Source of the DNA: a virus
Length of the DNA: 38,214 nucleotides
Virus record (IMG/VR): IMGVR_UViG_3300034095_000325
Coordinates: 1-38,214 of that record
Strand: one strand, 5' to 3'
In this document: positions 558 to 37,801 of the stretch, in pieces
Layout of the letters: every line of letters begins with the position of its first letter
Numbering within the stretch: the first letter of the stretch is position 1
Notes under the pieces: model-generated
What the model saw: the letters and a program-made list of their open reading frames with translations, nothing else
Database searches by the model: none
What the model was told of the DNA's origin: nothing
Translations under genes and position numbers: made by a program

Positions 558-840
558 CAAACAAAGATACTTCAAATTTATATACTTTCTTCTTTCCGTT
601 AGATTCAAGTAACAGACGACCATTTATAGGATTAAAAAACACATACCTTTCGGAGTGTCCCGTGTAGTCAGATACGTCAAACTTATACTCTTGGTTGTTG
701 AGCACAAGGTTTAAGTTCTCATCCAATTCAGCAGAAGTTATCTGCTCTATATTTAGGTTAAAGAATAGGCAGATAGTGTTCCCCCAGTTTCTTTTGTACT
801 CTCTAACTAACGAGAGGTTGGGCGTAGATTCTGCTTCCAT
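538..840 (-). CDS. Hypothetical protein (100 aa)
   Basis: A 100-residue protein not recognised as a known family. It starts at ATG 840, overlapping the last 38 bases of the helicase gene, and its stop overlaps the start of the next gene, so it is held tightly in the operon. The sequence alternates hydrophobic and polar residues (for example LNLVLNNQEYKFDVSDY and NGRLLLESNGKKKVYKFEV), suggesting a small beta-rich fold. No catalytic motif, signal peptide or membrane segment is visible. Its position behind the helicase suggests a replication-linked accessory role, but that is context only. Confidence 0.65.
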   Translation of the reverse strand: MEAESTPNLSLVREYKRNWGNTICLFFNLNIEQITSAELDENLNLVLNNQEYKFDVSDYTGHSERYVFFNPINGRLLLESNGKKKVYKFEVSLFDENEKF

Positions 841-1732
841 CGAATTGGTTTACTTCGTAATATCTATTAGTCATTCTGTCGTAGTACATATATACCCATC
901 CAAGCTTACCCACAGCCTTCGGCTTGGCTTTCACAATGGAAATCTTTACCTGATTAGGCTCGTAGGGCACTCCGTTGCTGTCGCACAGCCCGTAGGGGCA
1001 GCGCCAGATACTCACGACCATCATACCCTTCCGGGACCACTGCATACCGCCCGCGATGTCGTTCATAGTCGGGACATCCACAAATGGAATCCCGTCTTTG
1101 TACTTAACCTGCTGATGCTTAGTGTGTACCGTTACAATAGTGTGGTAGTCGCGCTCTGCTGAGTGCTTCCTTACCCTTGTCAGAATCTGCCCGATGGCGA
1201 TGTCTTCCCTCACTCCCGAAGAAACATCTGTCTTTATCTCGGTGAATGGGTCTACGATACAGCCGTCAATCTTTATGTCGTATCGCGATTCTATGTCAGC
1301 AACAGCCGTGTAGAAACCTTCTATGGTTATATCCTGCAATCCTGAGTCGATGATGTAGAAGTGCTTGCTGATGAAGTCTATGGCCTTCTGTGCCTCTTCA
1401 TCTGATGCCGTCACCATATCGTTAAGTAGGAATGGCTTACGGAGATAAACCCAAGCGAGCTCTGCGAATACATCAACCGGGCTTCCTGTTTCTGGGGAGT
1501 ATACTGCCCACTTCCATCCGGAGAACTCAGCGAGGTTCATCATAATCTCAAATCCAAACTGGGACTTGCCTTGGTGTGCACCTGCGTATACATAGGTGGT
1601 GCTTCCTCGCTTTACTGAGTATTTGTCGAAGAGAGAGTGGAATCCAACCCATTCTCCTTTTTTCATACCATCGTTGCGTAGTTCGTAAAGTTGCTCTTTT
1701 ACTTTTTCTATGTCGAATATAAATTCTCTCAT
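803..1732 (-). CDS. DnaB-like replicative helicase (RecA-fold ATPase, no primase domain)
   Basis: A 309-aa RecA-fold ATPase of the hexameric DnaB/SF4 helicase type. Walker A is A50-GAHQ-GKS57. E81 in YSPETGSP fits the catalytic glutamate. Walker B is a hydrophobic strand ending in D161 (IDGCIVDPF). VTVHTKHQ (H203, Q207) fits motif H3, and MNDIAGGMQWSRKGMMVV matches the late helicase core motif. It is shorter than DnaB (about 450 aa) and lacks the N-terminal domain, so a primase, if encoded, must be a separate gene; none is seen here. Start ATG 1732 overlaps the upstream stop as ATGA. The predicted role is unwinding of phage DNA at the fork. Confidence 0.88.
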   Translation of the reverse strand: MREFIFDIEKVKEQLYELRNDGMKKGEWVGFHSLFDKYSVKRGSTTYVYAGAHQGKSQFGFEIMMNLAEFSGWKWAVYSPETGSPVDVFAELAWVYLRKPFLLNDMVTASDEEAQKAIDFISKHFYIIDSGLQDITIEGFYTAVADIESRYDIKIDGCIVDPFTEIKTDVSSGVREDIAIGQILTRVRKHSAERDYHTIVTVHTKHQQVKYKDGIPFVDVPTMNDIAGGMQWSRKGMMVVSIWRCPYGLCDSNGVPYEPNQVKISIVKAKPKAVGKLGWVYMYYDRMTNRYYEVNQFDGSRIYAQPLVS

Positions 1733-9995: not shown

Positions 9996-10142
9996 TTTGT
10001 GGGGATTTTGTGTGTTTTGTTTTGTGTTGTCTACTCCGTGCAAGTTCAAAAAATTACTCCGCGTTTGTTTGTTTTGTTGCTTCGTTAGTTTCTTTTCTTG
10101 CTCTTGTTGTTGTTGTGGTCGTTCCACATATCAAAGATGCGA

Positions 10143-10150
10143 CAAAAATA
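10143..10150 (-). promoter_or_regulatory. Putative leftward -7 box TATTTTTG
   Basis: Minus-strand TATTTTTG fits TAnnTTTG. No TTG at the best -33 spacing was found; a TTTG with the later CATCTTTG is an alternative pairing. It would start leftward transcription near 10137. Confidence 0.35.
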
Positions 10151-10290
10151 GTTTCAAACAAATTTTTTATTTGTTGAACGGAAGAAGTTTTGATTGGGTG
10201 TCTAACTGACCACTAAGTCCGGGGGTAATTAATCAAAAACGACTCCCCTCCAAATCATTCACATTTTCTCTGTCTATTATTATACTACTA

Positions 10291-10315
10291 TAGAATACTC
10301 TATACGAGTATTCTA
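10291..10315. repeat. Dyad TAGAATACTC-TATAC-GAGTATTCTA
   Basis: A ten-base perfect stem (10291-10300 with 10306-10315) and a five-base loop. It shares the TACTC...GAGTA core with the dyad at 5360-5381 and, like that one, lies upstream of the ATAGTATACTAT palindromes relative to the controlled gene. Confidence 0.8.
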
Positions 10316-10356
10316 GTATTATTACATTTATATTATTACAATATATAGTAATATAG

Positions 10357-10396
10357 AAAGTATACTATAGATAGTATACTATATATAGTATACTAT
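10357..10396. repeat. Three 14-bp-spaced iterons of A(T/A)AGTATACTAT
   Basis: Copies start at 10357 (AAAGTATACTAT), 10371 and 10385 (both ATAGTATACTAT, a perfect 12-base palindrome), a constant 14-base step. Bases 10366-10382 are identical to minus-strand 5347-5331. Such phased palindromes suggest cooperative binding by a dimeric HTH protein or a replication iteron. Confidence 0.8.
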
Positions 10397-10433
10397 TATA
10401 CAAACTTCTTTTAGTAATTCATAACGTAATTCA

Positions 10434-10444
10434 TTGTATATTTG
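10434..10444 (+). promoter_or_regulatory. Putative promoter -7 box TTGTATATTTG for the rightward arm
   Basis: TATATTTG (10437-10444) matches TAnnTTTG exactly and ends three bases before ATG 10448. With a usual -7 spacing the transcript would begin at or next to the start codon, giving a leaderless mRNA. Confidence 0.55.
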
Positions 10445-10447
10445 CTT

Positions 10448-10735: not shown

Positions 10736-11177
10736 GAACGAAGTTGTCTCTGGAAGGGGCGCGGGGTTGACTCCTTTGCAGGAGCAGTTCATCGAGAGGG
10801 TGCGCGAGGAGGGGTTCGAGCATCAGGGCAGTATTGCGAAGGAGCTAAACTATACGAGCTATTACAGGGATAGGAACAACTATGGTACTGCTTTTTATTT
10901 GGCCTTGCGTAGCGCCATAAACAAAACAGAGGAGAAGGTAGAGGCAACCAAGGGTATGAACCTAGAGCTTCTTGTCAAGATACGCGATGAGGCTATGAGC
11001 ACTGGTGATGTCAAGATGGCAATGGAGGCTATGAAGATGATTAACGATATGCAGGGCTTCAAGGCCCCTGTGAAGGTGCAGCAGACCAAGATTGATGTGA
11101 AGGCAACTATAGACCTCACCCAATCGAACCAAGACCTTAGTGGGTACATCGACATAGGCTACGAGGATGAAGATTAA
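10713..11177 (+). CDS. Terminase small subunit (putative)
   Basis: A 154-aa protein just upstream of the large terminase and overlapping it by 11 bases, the usual place for the small subunit. The N-terminal half has a helix-rich DNA-binding-like region (LTPLQEQFIERVREEGFEHQ, then AKELNYTSYYRDRNNYGTAF) as in small terminases, followed by an oligomerisation helix (LELLVKIRDEAMSTGDVKMA) and a strand-rich C-terminus (TKIDVKATIDLTQ). The role would be recognition of phage DNA and regulation of TerL. Assignment rests on position and domain layout. Confidence 0.78.
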   Translation: MSSIRNAKNEVVSGRGAGLTPLQEQFIERVREEGFEHQGSIAKELNYTSYYRDRNNYGTAFYLALRSAINKTEEKVEATKGMNLELLVKIRDEAMSTGDVKMAMEAMKMINDMQGFKAPVKVQQTKIDVKATIDLTQSNQDLSGYIDIGYEDED

Positions 11178-12417
11178 TCTTTATAACCCCTCGGCTCCCC
11201 AGAGGGACTTCCTTGACCTAATCCATAAGGACAAGCCGTTTATTTCTCTTGTTGTTGCTGGTCGGCAAACAGGCAAGACTTTTATGATGATGAACGATGC
11301 TGTTATGCGTGGGCTCAATAATCCTCGACAGCGTATGTTCTGGGTCAGCCCTATTCAGGACCAAGCGAACAAGGTGATGAAGGACATCGAGGCTGCGTTT
11401 ATAAACCACCAAGATTTGTTTATGCAGATTGTAAAGCGGTTCGACAGGAAGAACAATGAGATGTTTTTCCACAACGGCAGCTTTATCAAGTTCCGCTCTG
11501 CTGACTCCGGGGACAACCTTCGTGGTGCAACTCTTGACTTCATCTACATCGATGAGGCTGCTTTCATAAGCGAGGACTTCATAAACGAGGTCCTGCTGCC
11601 TATGGTGACCCGAACAAGTGGTAGGGTTGTTATGTGCTCGACCTTCAATGGCAAAAACTGGTATTGGGACAAATATGTTCAAGGGATGGAGAAATCCAAC
11701 TGGGAACAGATAAAGTCCATCAAGAGGACATACCTAGACCTAAACGATGACGGTGTCGACAAGACTGTGCTGGGAATCAAGCAGAGTATGACAAAGGCTC
11801 AGTTCGACCAAGAGTTCTTATGTAAGCCAGTGAGTGGGGACGCTCTGTTCCACAACATCGAGGATGCGGTACGGCAGGCTGCGCCAAACACAACCGAACG
11901 AGTATATATGGGGATGGACATAGGTGTCGCCTATGACTACACCGTTCTCACTGCCCTAAATCAAGATTATGACATTATTGACATTGACAGGTTCCAGTAT
12001 CGCGAACTTGCTATGGATGCTAGTGCGTTCAAGAATCGCATCAAGGACTTCTATCTGAAGCACGATGAGCATCTAATGGCTTGCTACTTTGAGGTCAACA
12101 ACAACGACCTGCTGTTTGATGAGATTACCGATGATGAGAGGATGTATAAGATGCTGCCGTTTCACACTACAGGACAGACAAAGCCGGAGATTATAAAAAA
12201 TCTTATAAAGCTGTTTGAGGACAAGAAGATTACCATCCCAGATAACCTTGACCTGATAAAGGAGCTTTACGACTTCAAGAGCAAAAGGAACCCAATTACC
12301 GGAAATATGCAGTTCTCAAACTCTATGGGCAAGCACGATGATATGGTGATGTCTTTGGCTATAGGTGCGTGGTGTGCGTACAAAGAGCAGGATGGTGGAG
12401 TAACAATGTTCTTATGA
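11167..12417 (+). CDS. Terminase large subunit (packaging ATPase-nuclease)
   Basis: A 416-aa motor protein with all expected elements. Walker A is AGRQTGKT (31-38), Walker B is FIYIDEAAF (D129, E130), and the coupling motif is MCSTFNG (156-162). The C-terminal RNase H-like nuclease has acidic residues at D251 (MGMDIG), E309 (CYFEVNN) and D391 (GKHDDMVMSLA). The length is normal for the compact phage large terminases. It pumps DNA into the prohead and cuts the concatemer. The stop overlaps the next start as ATGA at 12414-12417. Confidence 0.95.
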   Translation: MKINLYNPSAPQRDFLDLIHKDKPFISLVVAGRQTGKTFMMMNDAVMRGLNNPRQRMFWVSPIQDQANKVMKDIEAAFINHQDLFMQIVKRFDRKNNEMFFHNGSFIKFRSADSGDNLRGATLDFIYIDEAAFISEDFINEVLLPMVTRTSGRVVMCSTFNGKNWYWDKYVQGMEKSNWEQIKSIKRTYLDLNDDGVDKTVLGIKQSMTKAQFDQEFLCKPVSGDALFHNIEDAVRQAAPNTTERVYMGMDIGVAYDYTVLTALNQDYDIIDIDRFQYRELAMDASAFKNRIKDFYLKHDEHLMACYFEVNNNDLLFDEITDDERMYKMLPFHTTGQTKPEIIKNLIKLFEDKKITIPDNLDLIKELYDFKSKRNPITGNMQFSNSMGKHDDMVMSLAIGAWCAYKEQDGGVTMFL

Positions 12418-34600: not shown

Positions 34601-35465
34601 GGCAAGTTCCGGTCGCTCTTCATCACTTGATATTGTTGGATATGGGGATGGTAATATGACCTATTACCAATCATCAGGAACATTTGCTGGATATAGTGGA
34701 TGGGCAGGATATTTTATTTCGAACCACGGGAATGGTTCGAACTACTACAACCAGACCATCATTACGCCGTTCTGGAGTCCGCCTCAGTATTCAAGACTTC
34801 AAGGTGGAACCTTTGTTGGTCCGTACACTTTTTGGAGTACAGAGAACTTGAATGATTACGCACCGAATATGAACCAATACGTTCGTACTACGGATAACGT
34901 AACATTCAATACAACTACTTCTCCTACTATACTTGTAAACGGTCACTCGGATAATACCAAGGGATACCGTATCCACAACACTAGCGGAAGCTCCGTAAGT
35001 GCGATGTTTACCAACTCATCCAACCAGCTAGTAATAGCCGCAGGTGCAGTTGACCAAATAAACCTCAATAAGAAGGTATACGTAAACGGAGTGGCACTCG
35101 GTGTCAACGTGGCGCCATCAGCAACCGCTGGACGTATTGACGCATCCAATGACATCGTTGCATTCTCATCCTCTGACGAACGTCTTAAGGATAACATAAC
35201 ACCCATTGAGAACGCACTTGACAAAGTGAAGTCACTCACCGGAGTGGAGTTTGACTGGAAACCAGAACATAAGGAAGCACACGGACACGAAGGACACGAC
35301 ACGGGTATCATAGCCCAGCAAGTGTTAGGCGTTATGCCGTCTGCTGTTAGGACTAACGATACAGGCTACCTAGCCGTGCGTTACGAGAAGCTAATCGGTC
35401 TCCTGATTGAGGCCAACAAGGAGCTTGCAGCTCGCGTTGAGGAACTTGAAAAGAAGATTGGGTAA
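31626..35465 (+). CDS. Giant tail fibre 2 with C-terminal S74-type chaperone
   Basis: A 1279-aa fibre starting one base after the previous stop. It carries at least four copies of a (H/T)(A/S)GNI(G/A)SQSV unit (beginning near 31967, 32537, 33066 and 33892) between variable, Gly/Ser/Asn-rich beta segments such as WYTW-like W-x-T-W repeats and a TAYYVDPNGNSYLSTLRV segment common in fibres. The last 95 residues are an S74 chaperone: SSDERLKDNI (Ser and Lys for autocleavage), VEFDWKPEHKEAHGHEGHDT with a His-rich loop, GIIAQQVLGVMP and a terminal coiled coil (ELAARVEELEKKIG). It likely pairs with fibre 1 for host recognition. Confidence 0.86.
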   Translation: MANLLSTIVSGRLSMGSNTATPYLTTAPDGIVFGGNEVGNAYRLYTDLENIGGNYTKLNIAWHTGIKIGAHLNYGGTRFYNDSPASGTEIFSVGKGDSNVRVVNTLFIGGNTAIHAGNIGSQSVSYASTSGTFSTDWTNYKGVTENAVAGELMWKNYGNNHTIFDASNSTSPTGSAVNNTNSDIAWTGTYPTLMGWNGNSTYGVRVDSARVADSAGAISGLVVGDFVRAYPTGAGNIDSDWGQSFKTFDPIPSGTPPLQSPNIRTINIGDSYARRTQLAFDYSSDVAYFRRRTETGWFTWREFIHSGNIASQSVNYATTAGTLTSINISQFTNDSGYLTSATVGNMTRLWAESHPTDYYVRANWTGTYWQLTSNHPSPVQVGYADSAGSAGAVAWGNVSSKPSNIMFYEGFTLDANTMSSNSTGFTYSVNAPFTGPIARFSTGGGYDLWLGGSYNGGGNTFFLRTRDGDAATLNPWREIITSGNIGSQSVSNATTANGANGNFYIDDNYGNTVVGLYDSTRYQGVFAMGDAYKLPANGTTTGSLYGLAWSHPNAGGVAGNLNTHGLLVMENGTFLAAISGSIRSRDDMRAPIFYDSQDTAYYVDPNGNSYLSTLRVANASSGVSLHVGLGSTHGVYTLDDARKYLVVSAEFYPHMAIVASGSNNTNHGAVFSFVGTEGSSPRQWNLGIPNQNPFIFSIGYNTNNDTNPHYGVGDGWSSNDADHARLSIDRSGNTKIRGMLYVNGTSGGISTGSAVIHAGNIGSQSVASAGNADTVDGFHASVAGTANTIPTRNSSGYLIPENWIQLNGAYGLYSPTNDAHLRPNSGSYGSWLVTGSRNSWRGLEFDSGSNGNVSLMVNVTSNTTGFHNNSYGWQFYWEGGTLYCSKNAYGAGTNATVLDSVNFTNYAWPLEGGWKPASLASSTRLRGATSPDGGEFALAYSGGQIHPYADGFFYQNEGAYRVIDTNSVGSYAPTLTGGGASGSWGISVTGSAASSGRSSSLDIVGYGDGNMTYYQSSGTFAGYSGWAGYFISNHGNGSNYYNQTIITPFWSPPQYSRLQGGTFVGPYTFWSTENLNDYAPNMNQYVRTTDNVTFNTTTSPTILVNGHSDNTKGYRIHNTSGSSVSAMFTNSSNQLVIAAGAVDQINLNKKVYVNGVALGVNVAPSATAGRIDASNDIVAFSSSDERLKDNITPIENALDKVKSLTGVEFDWKPEHKEAHGHEGHDTGIIAQQVLGVMPSAVRTNDTGYLAVRYEKLIGLLIEANKELAARVEELEKKIG

Positions 35466-36601: not shown

Positions 36602-36628
36602 GAAAGCCCTTCGGGGCTTTCTTTTTTT
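36602..36628 (+). terminator. Rho-independent terminator before the lysis cassette
   Basis: GAAAGCCC-TTCG-GGGCTTTC stem (36602-36609 with 36614-36621), a UUCG tetraloop and a seven-T tract (36622-36628). The T-tract merges directly into the promoter-like box at 36626. Confidence 0.95.
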
Positions 36629-36816: not shown

Positions 36817-37001
36817 TTAAGCGAATCTTCGAGAGTCCAAAGACCACAATACTTGGTCTAATTGTAATAGCGCTTTGTTTTGTGTTAGTTTTCCTAGAGA
36901 AGGCTACGCTTACAGAGCTGTCGTTGTTTATGGTTGGTGGATTTTCTATGTTATTTCTAAAAGACGATGTCAGCGAAACTAAAAAGCCAGACGGCAAGTA
37001 G
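36813..37001 (+). CDS. Putative holin-like membrane protein 2 (62 aa, GTG start)
   Basis: A 62-aa protein starting at a GTG that overlaps the previous stop. Two hydrophobic segments, TTILGLIVIALCFVLVFL (11-28) and ELSLFMVGGFSMLFL (35-49), are joined by a short charged turn, followed by a charged tail (KDDVSETKKPDGK). The two-segment topology with a hydrophilic C-terminus is that of class II holins. With the 53-aa protein upstream it may form a holin pair, or a holin and antiholin. Confidence 0.7.
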   Translation: MIKRIFESPKTTILGLIVIALCFVLVFLEKATLTELSLFMVGGFSMLFLKDDVSETKKPDGK

Positions 37002-37107
37002 GCACATAAGCAAAAGCAAAAAACGCGGAAAGCACTCTAAGAGTGCATCTGCTAATAAGGCCAGTAAAAACTACGCTAAACCGTACAAATCACAGGGTCG
37101 CTCGTAA
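36967..37107 (+). CDS. Small, highly basic Lys/Ser-rich peptide (46 aa)
   Basis: A frame from ATG 36967 that overlaps the 3' end of the holin-like gene by 35 bases and ends with TAA 37107. The peptide is extremely basic (SRHISKSKKRGKHSKSASAN, then YAKPYKSQGRS), without hydrophobic segments. It resembles small DNA- or RNA-binding basic peptides; small Lys/Ser-rich ORFs are known near lysis genes in other phages. Function unknown. Support is from the overlap style and composition. Confidence 0.5.
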   Translation: MSAKLKSQTASRHISKSKKRGKHSKSASANKASKNYAKPYKSQGRS

Positions 37108-37258
37108 CAAATCTGCTATGTTTTTTGTTACGAATAGTGAACCCTTTAATGTGCATTAAGGCGCACTTTACCTGTTAATGTACGTTTTAATGTACATTAT
37201 GACTACAAATTGTGCAATTAAAGGCACATTAAGCAATATGCAAAAGATGCAAATTGCT

Positions 37259-37307
37259 AAGTCAAATGAGCATAAATTGTGCAAAGTGTAAAGTCAAATG
37301 AGCATAA
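37259..37307 (+). repeat. Direct repeat AAGTCAAATGAGCATAA, 32-bp period
   Basis: Identical 17-base copies at 37259-37275 and 37291-37307. The sequence after each (ATTGTGCAAAGTGTA and TGTGTAAAATG) is also related, suggesting an imperfect tandem duplication. Confidence 0.85.
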
Positions 37308-37348
37308 TGTGTAAAATGCCCAGTTTTTGATAATATAAACGTGACAAA

Positions 37349-37359
37349 TTGTAAATTAT
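37349..37359 (+). promoter_or_regulatory. TTGTAAATTAT box before the endolysin
   Basis: The box ends seven bases before ATG 37367. A TTG is 22 bases upstream of TAAATTAT, in the usual -33/-7 range, so this is one of the better copies. Confidence 0.5.
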
Positions 37360-37366
37360 ACATACT

Positions 37367-37801
37367 ATGAAACTATCAGAAAACTTCAGCCTTGAAGAGC
37401 TTAGTAAAACCTCTACTGGTTTAGATAACACTCCAAACAAAGAGCAGATAGAAAACCTCCGGCAGTTAGCTATTAACGTACTACAGCCAGCTAGGGATGC
37501 CCTTGGTCCGATTAAGGTTACCAGCGCCTTCAGAGCGCCTGCCGTCAATTCAAAGGTGGGTGGGGCATCAAGCAGCCAACATACAAAGGGAGAAGCGGCT
37601 GACCTTATGATGTCAGGAGGCCAGAAAAAGCTCTTAGAATGGATTATTGCCAACGTAGAGTTCGACCAGATAATCTCTGAGTTTCCTGATGCAAATGGCA
37701 ACCCTCAGTGGGTTCACGTTAGCTACAGAGAAGGCAGCAACCGCAACCAAAAACTTAAAGCAATAAAGTCAAACGGCAAAACTAAATATGTACCTTTATG
37801 A
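37367..37801 (+). CDS. Endolysin, M15-family zinc peptidase
   Basis: A 144-aa peptidase of the M15 type (D-Ala-D-Ala carboxypeptidase-like / L-Ala-D-Glu endopeptidase). LSENFSLEELSKTSTGL opens the protein. VTSAFRAPAVNSKVGGASSS then QHTKGEAADL gives zinc ligands H72 and D79, and WVHVSY provides H117. All expected metal ligands are present. There is no signal peptide, so release probably depends on the two membrane proteins upstream. It would cleave cell-wall peptides. The stop overlaps the next ORF as ATGA. Confidence 0.92.
   Translation: MKLSENFSLEELSKTSTGLDNTPNKEQIENLRQLAINVLQPARDALGPIKVTSAFRAPAVNSKVGGASSSQHTKGEAADLMMSGGQKKLLEWIIANVEFDQIISEFPDANGNPQWVHVSYREGSNRNQKLKAIKSNGKTKYVPL

Follow-up and report, generated by a model that had tools for sequence, protein, structure and literature searches.

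The window analysed here, the 38,214-nt stretch that makes up IMG/VR record IMGVR_UViG_3300034095_000325, is a fragment of a tailed phage genome and is about 95% coding. Its second largest gap separates a small, very basic ORF from the endolysin gene and, as the preliminary description of this locus had noted, contains no credible gene in an otherwise tightly packed genome; only the gap in the divergent early region (10128-10447) is larger. The basic ORF is kept 5' of the endolysin in many relatives and matches phrog_32962 at E 0.0016. A very close relative, L003 (43,350 nt), self-overlaps by ~135 nt, so that the map closes as a circle of ~43.2 kb, on which the endolysin is followed by a lipoprotein-like gene, a terminator-like hairpin and then leftward early genes, including that of a DnaB-like helicase. 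Terminator-like hairpins were seen at window positions 36602-36621 (GAAAGCCCTTCGGGGCTTTC) and between converging gene sets at about 1222-1245 of L003 (GAAGGGGGCTTACGCCCCCTTTTC). That the host may belong to the Bacteroidota is suggested by the TAnnTTTG-like boxes of the early region and, in a related lineage, by a primase resembling BT4734.

Table 1. Features in and around the gap before the endolysin gene (window coordinates).
Feature	Position	Strand	Remarks
Very basic ORF, 46 aa (SKSKKRGKHSKSASANKASKNYAKPYKSQGR)	36967-37107		upstream neighbour of the gap
Module H, inverted repeat TCGTAACAAA-N12-TTTGTTACGA	37102-37133	.	10-bp perfect arms
Whole non-coding gap holding the array	37108-37366 (259 nt)	.	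no credible ORF
Ultraconserved core, ~90 nt	about 37142-37232	+	near-invariant columns, 50 distinct variants
Dyad 1, TTAATGTGCATTAA	37146-37159	.	6-nt arms, TG spacer
Six DnaA-box-like 9-mers (TTWTNCACA, at most 1 mismatch)	37150-37316	all -	densest stretch of the window
28-mer, TTAATGTACGTTTTAATGTACATTATGA	37175-37202	+	contains dyad 2
Dyad 2, TAATGTACATTA	37188-37199		perfect 12-bp palindrome
Dyad 3, AATTGTGCAATT	37208-37219	.	5-nt arms, TG spacer
Module R (TGTGCAATTAAAGGCACA)	37211-37228	+	once per genome in G015, G321, G324, G326 and others
32-bp tandem repeat, two copies, 84%	37248-37311	+	exact 17-mer AAGTCAAATGAGCATAA twice
Perfect DnaA-box-like 9-mer, TTTTACACA	37308-37316	-	
AT-rich stretch 5' of the endolysin start	37319-37366	.	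25% GC
Endolysin gene (phrog_894)	37367-37801	+	downstream neighbour of the gap
DnaB-like helicase gene	803-1732	-	circular distance to the element ~3.6 kb (from L003)
Terminase gene	11167-12417		far from the element

The three related dyads, the further half-sites, the 32-bp tandem repeat and the two exact 17-mers that had been described for this gap are all present (Table 1). Within the window by itself, three dyads in 101 nt make only a modest excess over shuffled sequence (mean 0.66; 59 of 2000 shuffles reach three), and the strength of the cluster lies in conservation across phages; enrichment of TTAATGTRCATTAA across the whole window, allowing up to three mismatches, was not significant. 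Single-strand folding gave z = -4.9, and no tRNA or tmRNA genes were found. Module H spans the stop codon of the basic ORF and also occurs in L002, L108 and L221. The tandem repeat is present in one or two copies among relatives, and is not a general component since it is single in many of them and absent from the 60-kb lineage. In longer versions of the gap (L002 4657-4842 and L172) a frame beginning MTTNCAIKG that overlaps the core is open for 51-61 codons, probably by chance; we rejected it as a small gene, as the core changes there are mostly non-synonymous and base conservation of the core is independent of codon position in this frame.

Comparison with relatives, the check named in the preliminary description, proved decisive. 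The exact 28-mer occurs once each in 55 viral IMG/VR contigs, and patterns to its left and right were found in 69 and at least 80 contigs, respectively. Overall, the ~90-nt core is present once per record in about 80 IMG/VR contigs from at least three phage lineages, at 86-100% identity over 92-101 nt, with most columns invariant between 37142 and 37231 and the GTGCATT of dyad 1 invariant among relatives, whereas the terminases and helicases of the same lineages share only ~22% and 20-25% of their amino acids. The core of the window and that of the L149 genome agree at 95.7% over 94 nt, a higher identity than in any other match found for this pair. When loci were chosen by the left part of the core only (53 loci, mostly lineage B), the unselected right half was 96% identical, while the endolysin gene reached 92% in its first 300 nt and 81% at its third positions; the non-coding core is therefore held more tightly than the neighbouring genes, and it is more conserved than their synonymous sites. 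Searches for the element retrieved nothing from isolate phages and only weak partial matches from plasmids, a 29-mer had no match in bacterial genomes, and a targeted literature search returned no published description of such an element. Two other regions of the window resemble other lineages as well: that of a small Cys-rich protein (2058-2308; MTDITKC...), with 75-88% DNA identity and an L149 counterpart only ~280 nt 5' of the core, and the tail-fibre tip (35130-35440), whose 77% DNA identity to the L149 lineage suggests shared hosts and gene exchange.

The core lies 5' of the endolysin gene in lineage A (the window, L002, L003 and L005) and in lineage B (L096, L104, L124 and others, with contigs up to ~32 kb), and among early genes in lineage C (L097, L108, L125, L143 and L149). 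In L149 it sits 11 kb from the endolysin and 0.6 kb 5' of a BT4734-like primase-helicase gene, which speaks against a lysis-timing operator, as the preliminary description had proposed, being its general function. L006, with an endolysin 81% identical to that of the window, keeps the gene order with neither a gap nor the core at the endolysin, and such a loss of the repeats from a relative of unchanged gene order, by which the same description had suggested judging its reading, counts against a lysis role. Lysis timing would be, at most, a side effect of the position of the core in lineages A and B. A motif scan of L003 placed the site only 5' of the endolysin (the scan covered the first 20 kb, including the helicase region, and further searches covered the whole record). 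The gene for the replicative helicase is 3.6 kb from the element in lineage A, 2.8 kb in B and 0.6 kb in C.

We gathered more distant relatives by a search with the MazG-like protein of L007, and comparison of their sequences indicates that the gap is modular, being made up of H, P, R and a tandem module with TTTACAC repeats. Module P (TCGGA-N5-TCCGA) is missing from the window and lies 33-65 nt 5' of the core in several lineage B and C loci, while module R corresponds to TGTGCANTTAAANNCACA; each occurs about once per genome, and a reversed control gave 0 matches. R abuts an ATG in L226 and L232, and P is followed by a near-constant spacer and then an ATG ahead of different genes (TCCGAATAACNAAACAAAATCTGACAATG in L228, L232 and L249). 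Relative to the flanking genes, the P-R unit of L221/L007 is inverted compared to that of L226, and its occurrence in both orientations argues for a function at the DNA level. A further repeat set (TATACCCTATCGYRTATA) was seen upstream of MazG in L007-type phages (L221 about 2750-2830, and L222). In the distant relatives, which have pieces of the element, the cluster is again close to the helicase gene (3.1 kb in G321, 0.8 kb in G324, 0.8 kb in G326/L007, 1.3 kb in G323; in G325, 1.0 kb from P and 2.7 kb from R), so that wherever both were seen in a genome they lie within 0.6-3.6 kb of each other.

In G326, which is 79% identical to the window, 2.4 kb carrying the cluster and MazG separate two blocks that the window joins by 289 bp (2019-2308), and L006 in turn matches G326 at 88% over 386 nt. 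The resulting pattern of complementary placement, on the helicase side or at the front of the lysis cassette, is pieced together from different contigs of the L007/G326/L006 group, as both sides are seen in no single genome of that group. In a sister group (L012 and others), the slot at the endolysin is taken by another, dissimilar non-coding stretch that is conserved there (in L012, upstream of 5001) and carries an AACTC...GAGTT hairpin with a variable loop.

The locus is also rich in DnaA-box-like sites. Within 181 nt (37140-37320) TTWTNCACA is matched six times when up to one mismatch is allowed, against 0.4 expected. All six lie on the minus strand, one is perfect and two are repeat copies belonging to the tandem; no separate 181-nt stretch of the 38-kb window exceeds three. 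As many boxes arose in 6 of 1000 dinucleotide shuffles and with 1 of 300 permuted motifs. The locus is the top stretch by this measure in g104, g124, G326 and G325 too, L003 has seven boxes at the element, and altogether it is the densest stretch, or nearly so, in 6 of the 9 genomes or contigs checked; the excess is absent at the locus in g149 (lineage C), G321 and G324. Because the DnaA-box test was picked after the motifs had been seen, this excess is only suggestive. The adjoining AT-rich stretch (25% GC versus 42% overall) is matched by 3.5% of all 48-nt stretches, and the GC skew, with a minimum near 10 kb in the window, tracks gene orientation and thus lends no independent support to an origin. 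The gap at 10128-10447, the largest and most AT-rich, lies between divergent early and late genes, contains tandem 14-bp palindromic repeats of the TACTATAGATAGTA type and could be a divergent promoter region or a rival origin.

Taken together, single copy, near-invariance, closeness to the helicase gene, presence in both orientations and DnaA-box density favour reading the array as a single-copy, DNA-level, cis-acting candidate locus of replication-origin type, to which we assign a probability of about 0.45. Of the three functions put forward in the preliminary description (lysis-timing operator, replication origin, packaging site), the origin is thereby the best supported, as a candidate, and the element probably serves for control, for instance as a start point of replication, and not for timing lysis; uniqueness in each genome and proximity to replication genes are as expected of an origin. 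Under this proposal, a host initiator (DnaA or similar) would bind the dyads and DnaA-box-like sites clustered in the core and tandem module, beside the AT-rich stretch 5' of the endolysin, and the phage DnaB-like helicase would load nearby for replication to initiate. Recognition by a host protein and initiation at the element are steps that we infer, and a host factor must be assumed because lineages with quite different helicases share the core. The lineage of the window would have lost the helicase-side cluster and would now rely on the core ahead of the endolysin. Against an origin at the element, the box excess is missing from lineage C, G321 and G324, and replication could start in the gap at 10128-10447, which is likewise rich in AT and in repeats.

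Also against an origin, P or R abuts a start codon in some relatives, which fits a promoter or leader. As the main alternative, the locus may be a promoter/operator hub in which the dyads are regulator sites and the modules a promoter and leader driving whichever gene follows, that is, early genes in most lineages and the endolysin in A and B. We consider this possible, though on the unlikely side. Operators typically show such repeats of a single dyad theme, and the arrangement of P, near-constant spacer and ATG before different genes would fit this reading, as would the contact between R and ATG in L226 and L232. Yet a promoter family should recur within a genome, while P and R occur about once each, the unit is also found inverted relative to flanking genes, and a nearly invariant run of ~60 nt is long for a promoter; by inspection the core has no TAnnTTTG-type box, sigma70-like matches are at chance level, and the proteins scanned include no recognisable regulator. 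That the core encodes a structured RNA (a leader, a put-kind antiterminator or a small RNA) seems improbable, even if it is co-oriented with the downstream gene at every locus where one was called, its consensus fold reaches -10.2 kcal/mol where shuffled columns average -2.8, and wobble pairing accommodates some of the stem changes. The DNA dyads alone yield the same folding, compensatory two-sided changes number 0 in 50 variants, several changes break stems, an Rfam search gave no match, and the inverted P-R unit of L221/L007 again speaks against a transcript.

Near identity across unrelated genomes, together with the perfect 9-nt inverted ends that the window has at 37146 and 37232, would also suit a non-coding element that is mobile or spreads horizontally, has short inverted ends (TTAATGTGC...GCACATTAA) and is of no use to the phage. 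This is quite improbable, as no record has more than one copy, the left end differs from relative to relative, the core is better conserved than its neighbouring genes, a sign of selection, and the complementary placement suggests that a genome needs one. Still less credible is a site for host XerC/XerD recombination, serving integration or dimer resolution: TAATGTACATTATG is similar to the centre of the E. coli dif sequence in PMC3025954, and dif sites do serve integrating phages of Bacteroidetes (PMC3091885, PMC9719478), the central palindrome of the element being close to the dif centre. It differs from such sites in that the outer part of the XerD arm is without a match, no 28-bp site with XerC and XerD arms being recognised, and in the lack of a host counterpart: TGTACATTATGACTACA has only 9 scattered matches in a collection of 84,980 species, and TAANGTACATTATG is not enriched in 296 genomes of the Bacteroidota, the presumed host phylum (29 places among the matches listed versus some 27 for the reversed control). 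Nor was there a sign of integration, and no integrase was recognised among the proteins scanned. The packaging site (cos or pac) of the preliminary description found no support and is comparably remote. Some contig ends do lie near the element, as does the self-overlap of L003, but these ends are scattered over different bases, which is what assembly breaks in shared sequence would produce, and the element is far from the terminase gene.

Returning to the origin-type reading, we consider it doubtful, yet worth stating, that the element is a portable initiation module recognised by the host and swapped between unrelated phages as bare non-coding DNA. If so, a single, nearly letter-perfect copy per genome would move between the helicase side and the front of the lysis cassette with its function kept. 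Few replication origins have been mapped in uncultured tailed phages. With a ~90-nt sequence common to phages with different replication proteins, such sites could be readily marked, and one could ask directly whether phages that share a host converge on an origin recognised by that host. The present case also illustrates how an operator-like array seen on its own can be read differently once phages are compared.

Among known systems, phage operator arrays likewise combine several related palindromes with half-sites, but the element is not tied to one gene, forms about one cluster per genome and is densely invariant between the palindromes too. Iteron-type phage origins such as lambda ori also repeat dyads of one theme in a short stretch; the element differs from them in that its core is common to phages with different helicases and sits in intergenic gaps of changing context, so that no lineage-specific initiator explains it. 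DnaA-box origins are known from bacteria, plasmids and phage-plasmids (for example P1 oriR), and although most boxes of the element carry a mismatch, no initiator gene was identified and lineage C is without the excess, the candidate locus of the window resembles them in its clustered same-strand DnaA-box-like 9-mers, the AT-rich stretch beside them, its uniqueness in the genome and its position near a helicase gene.
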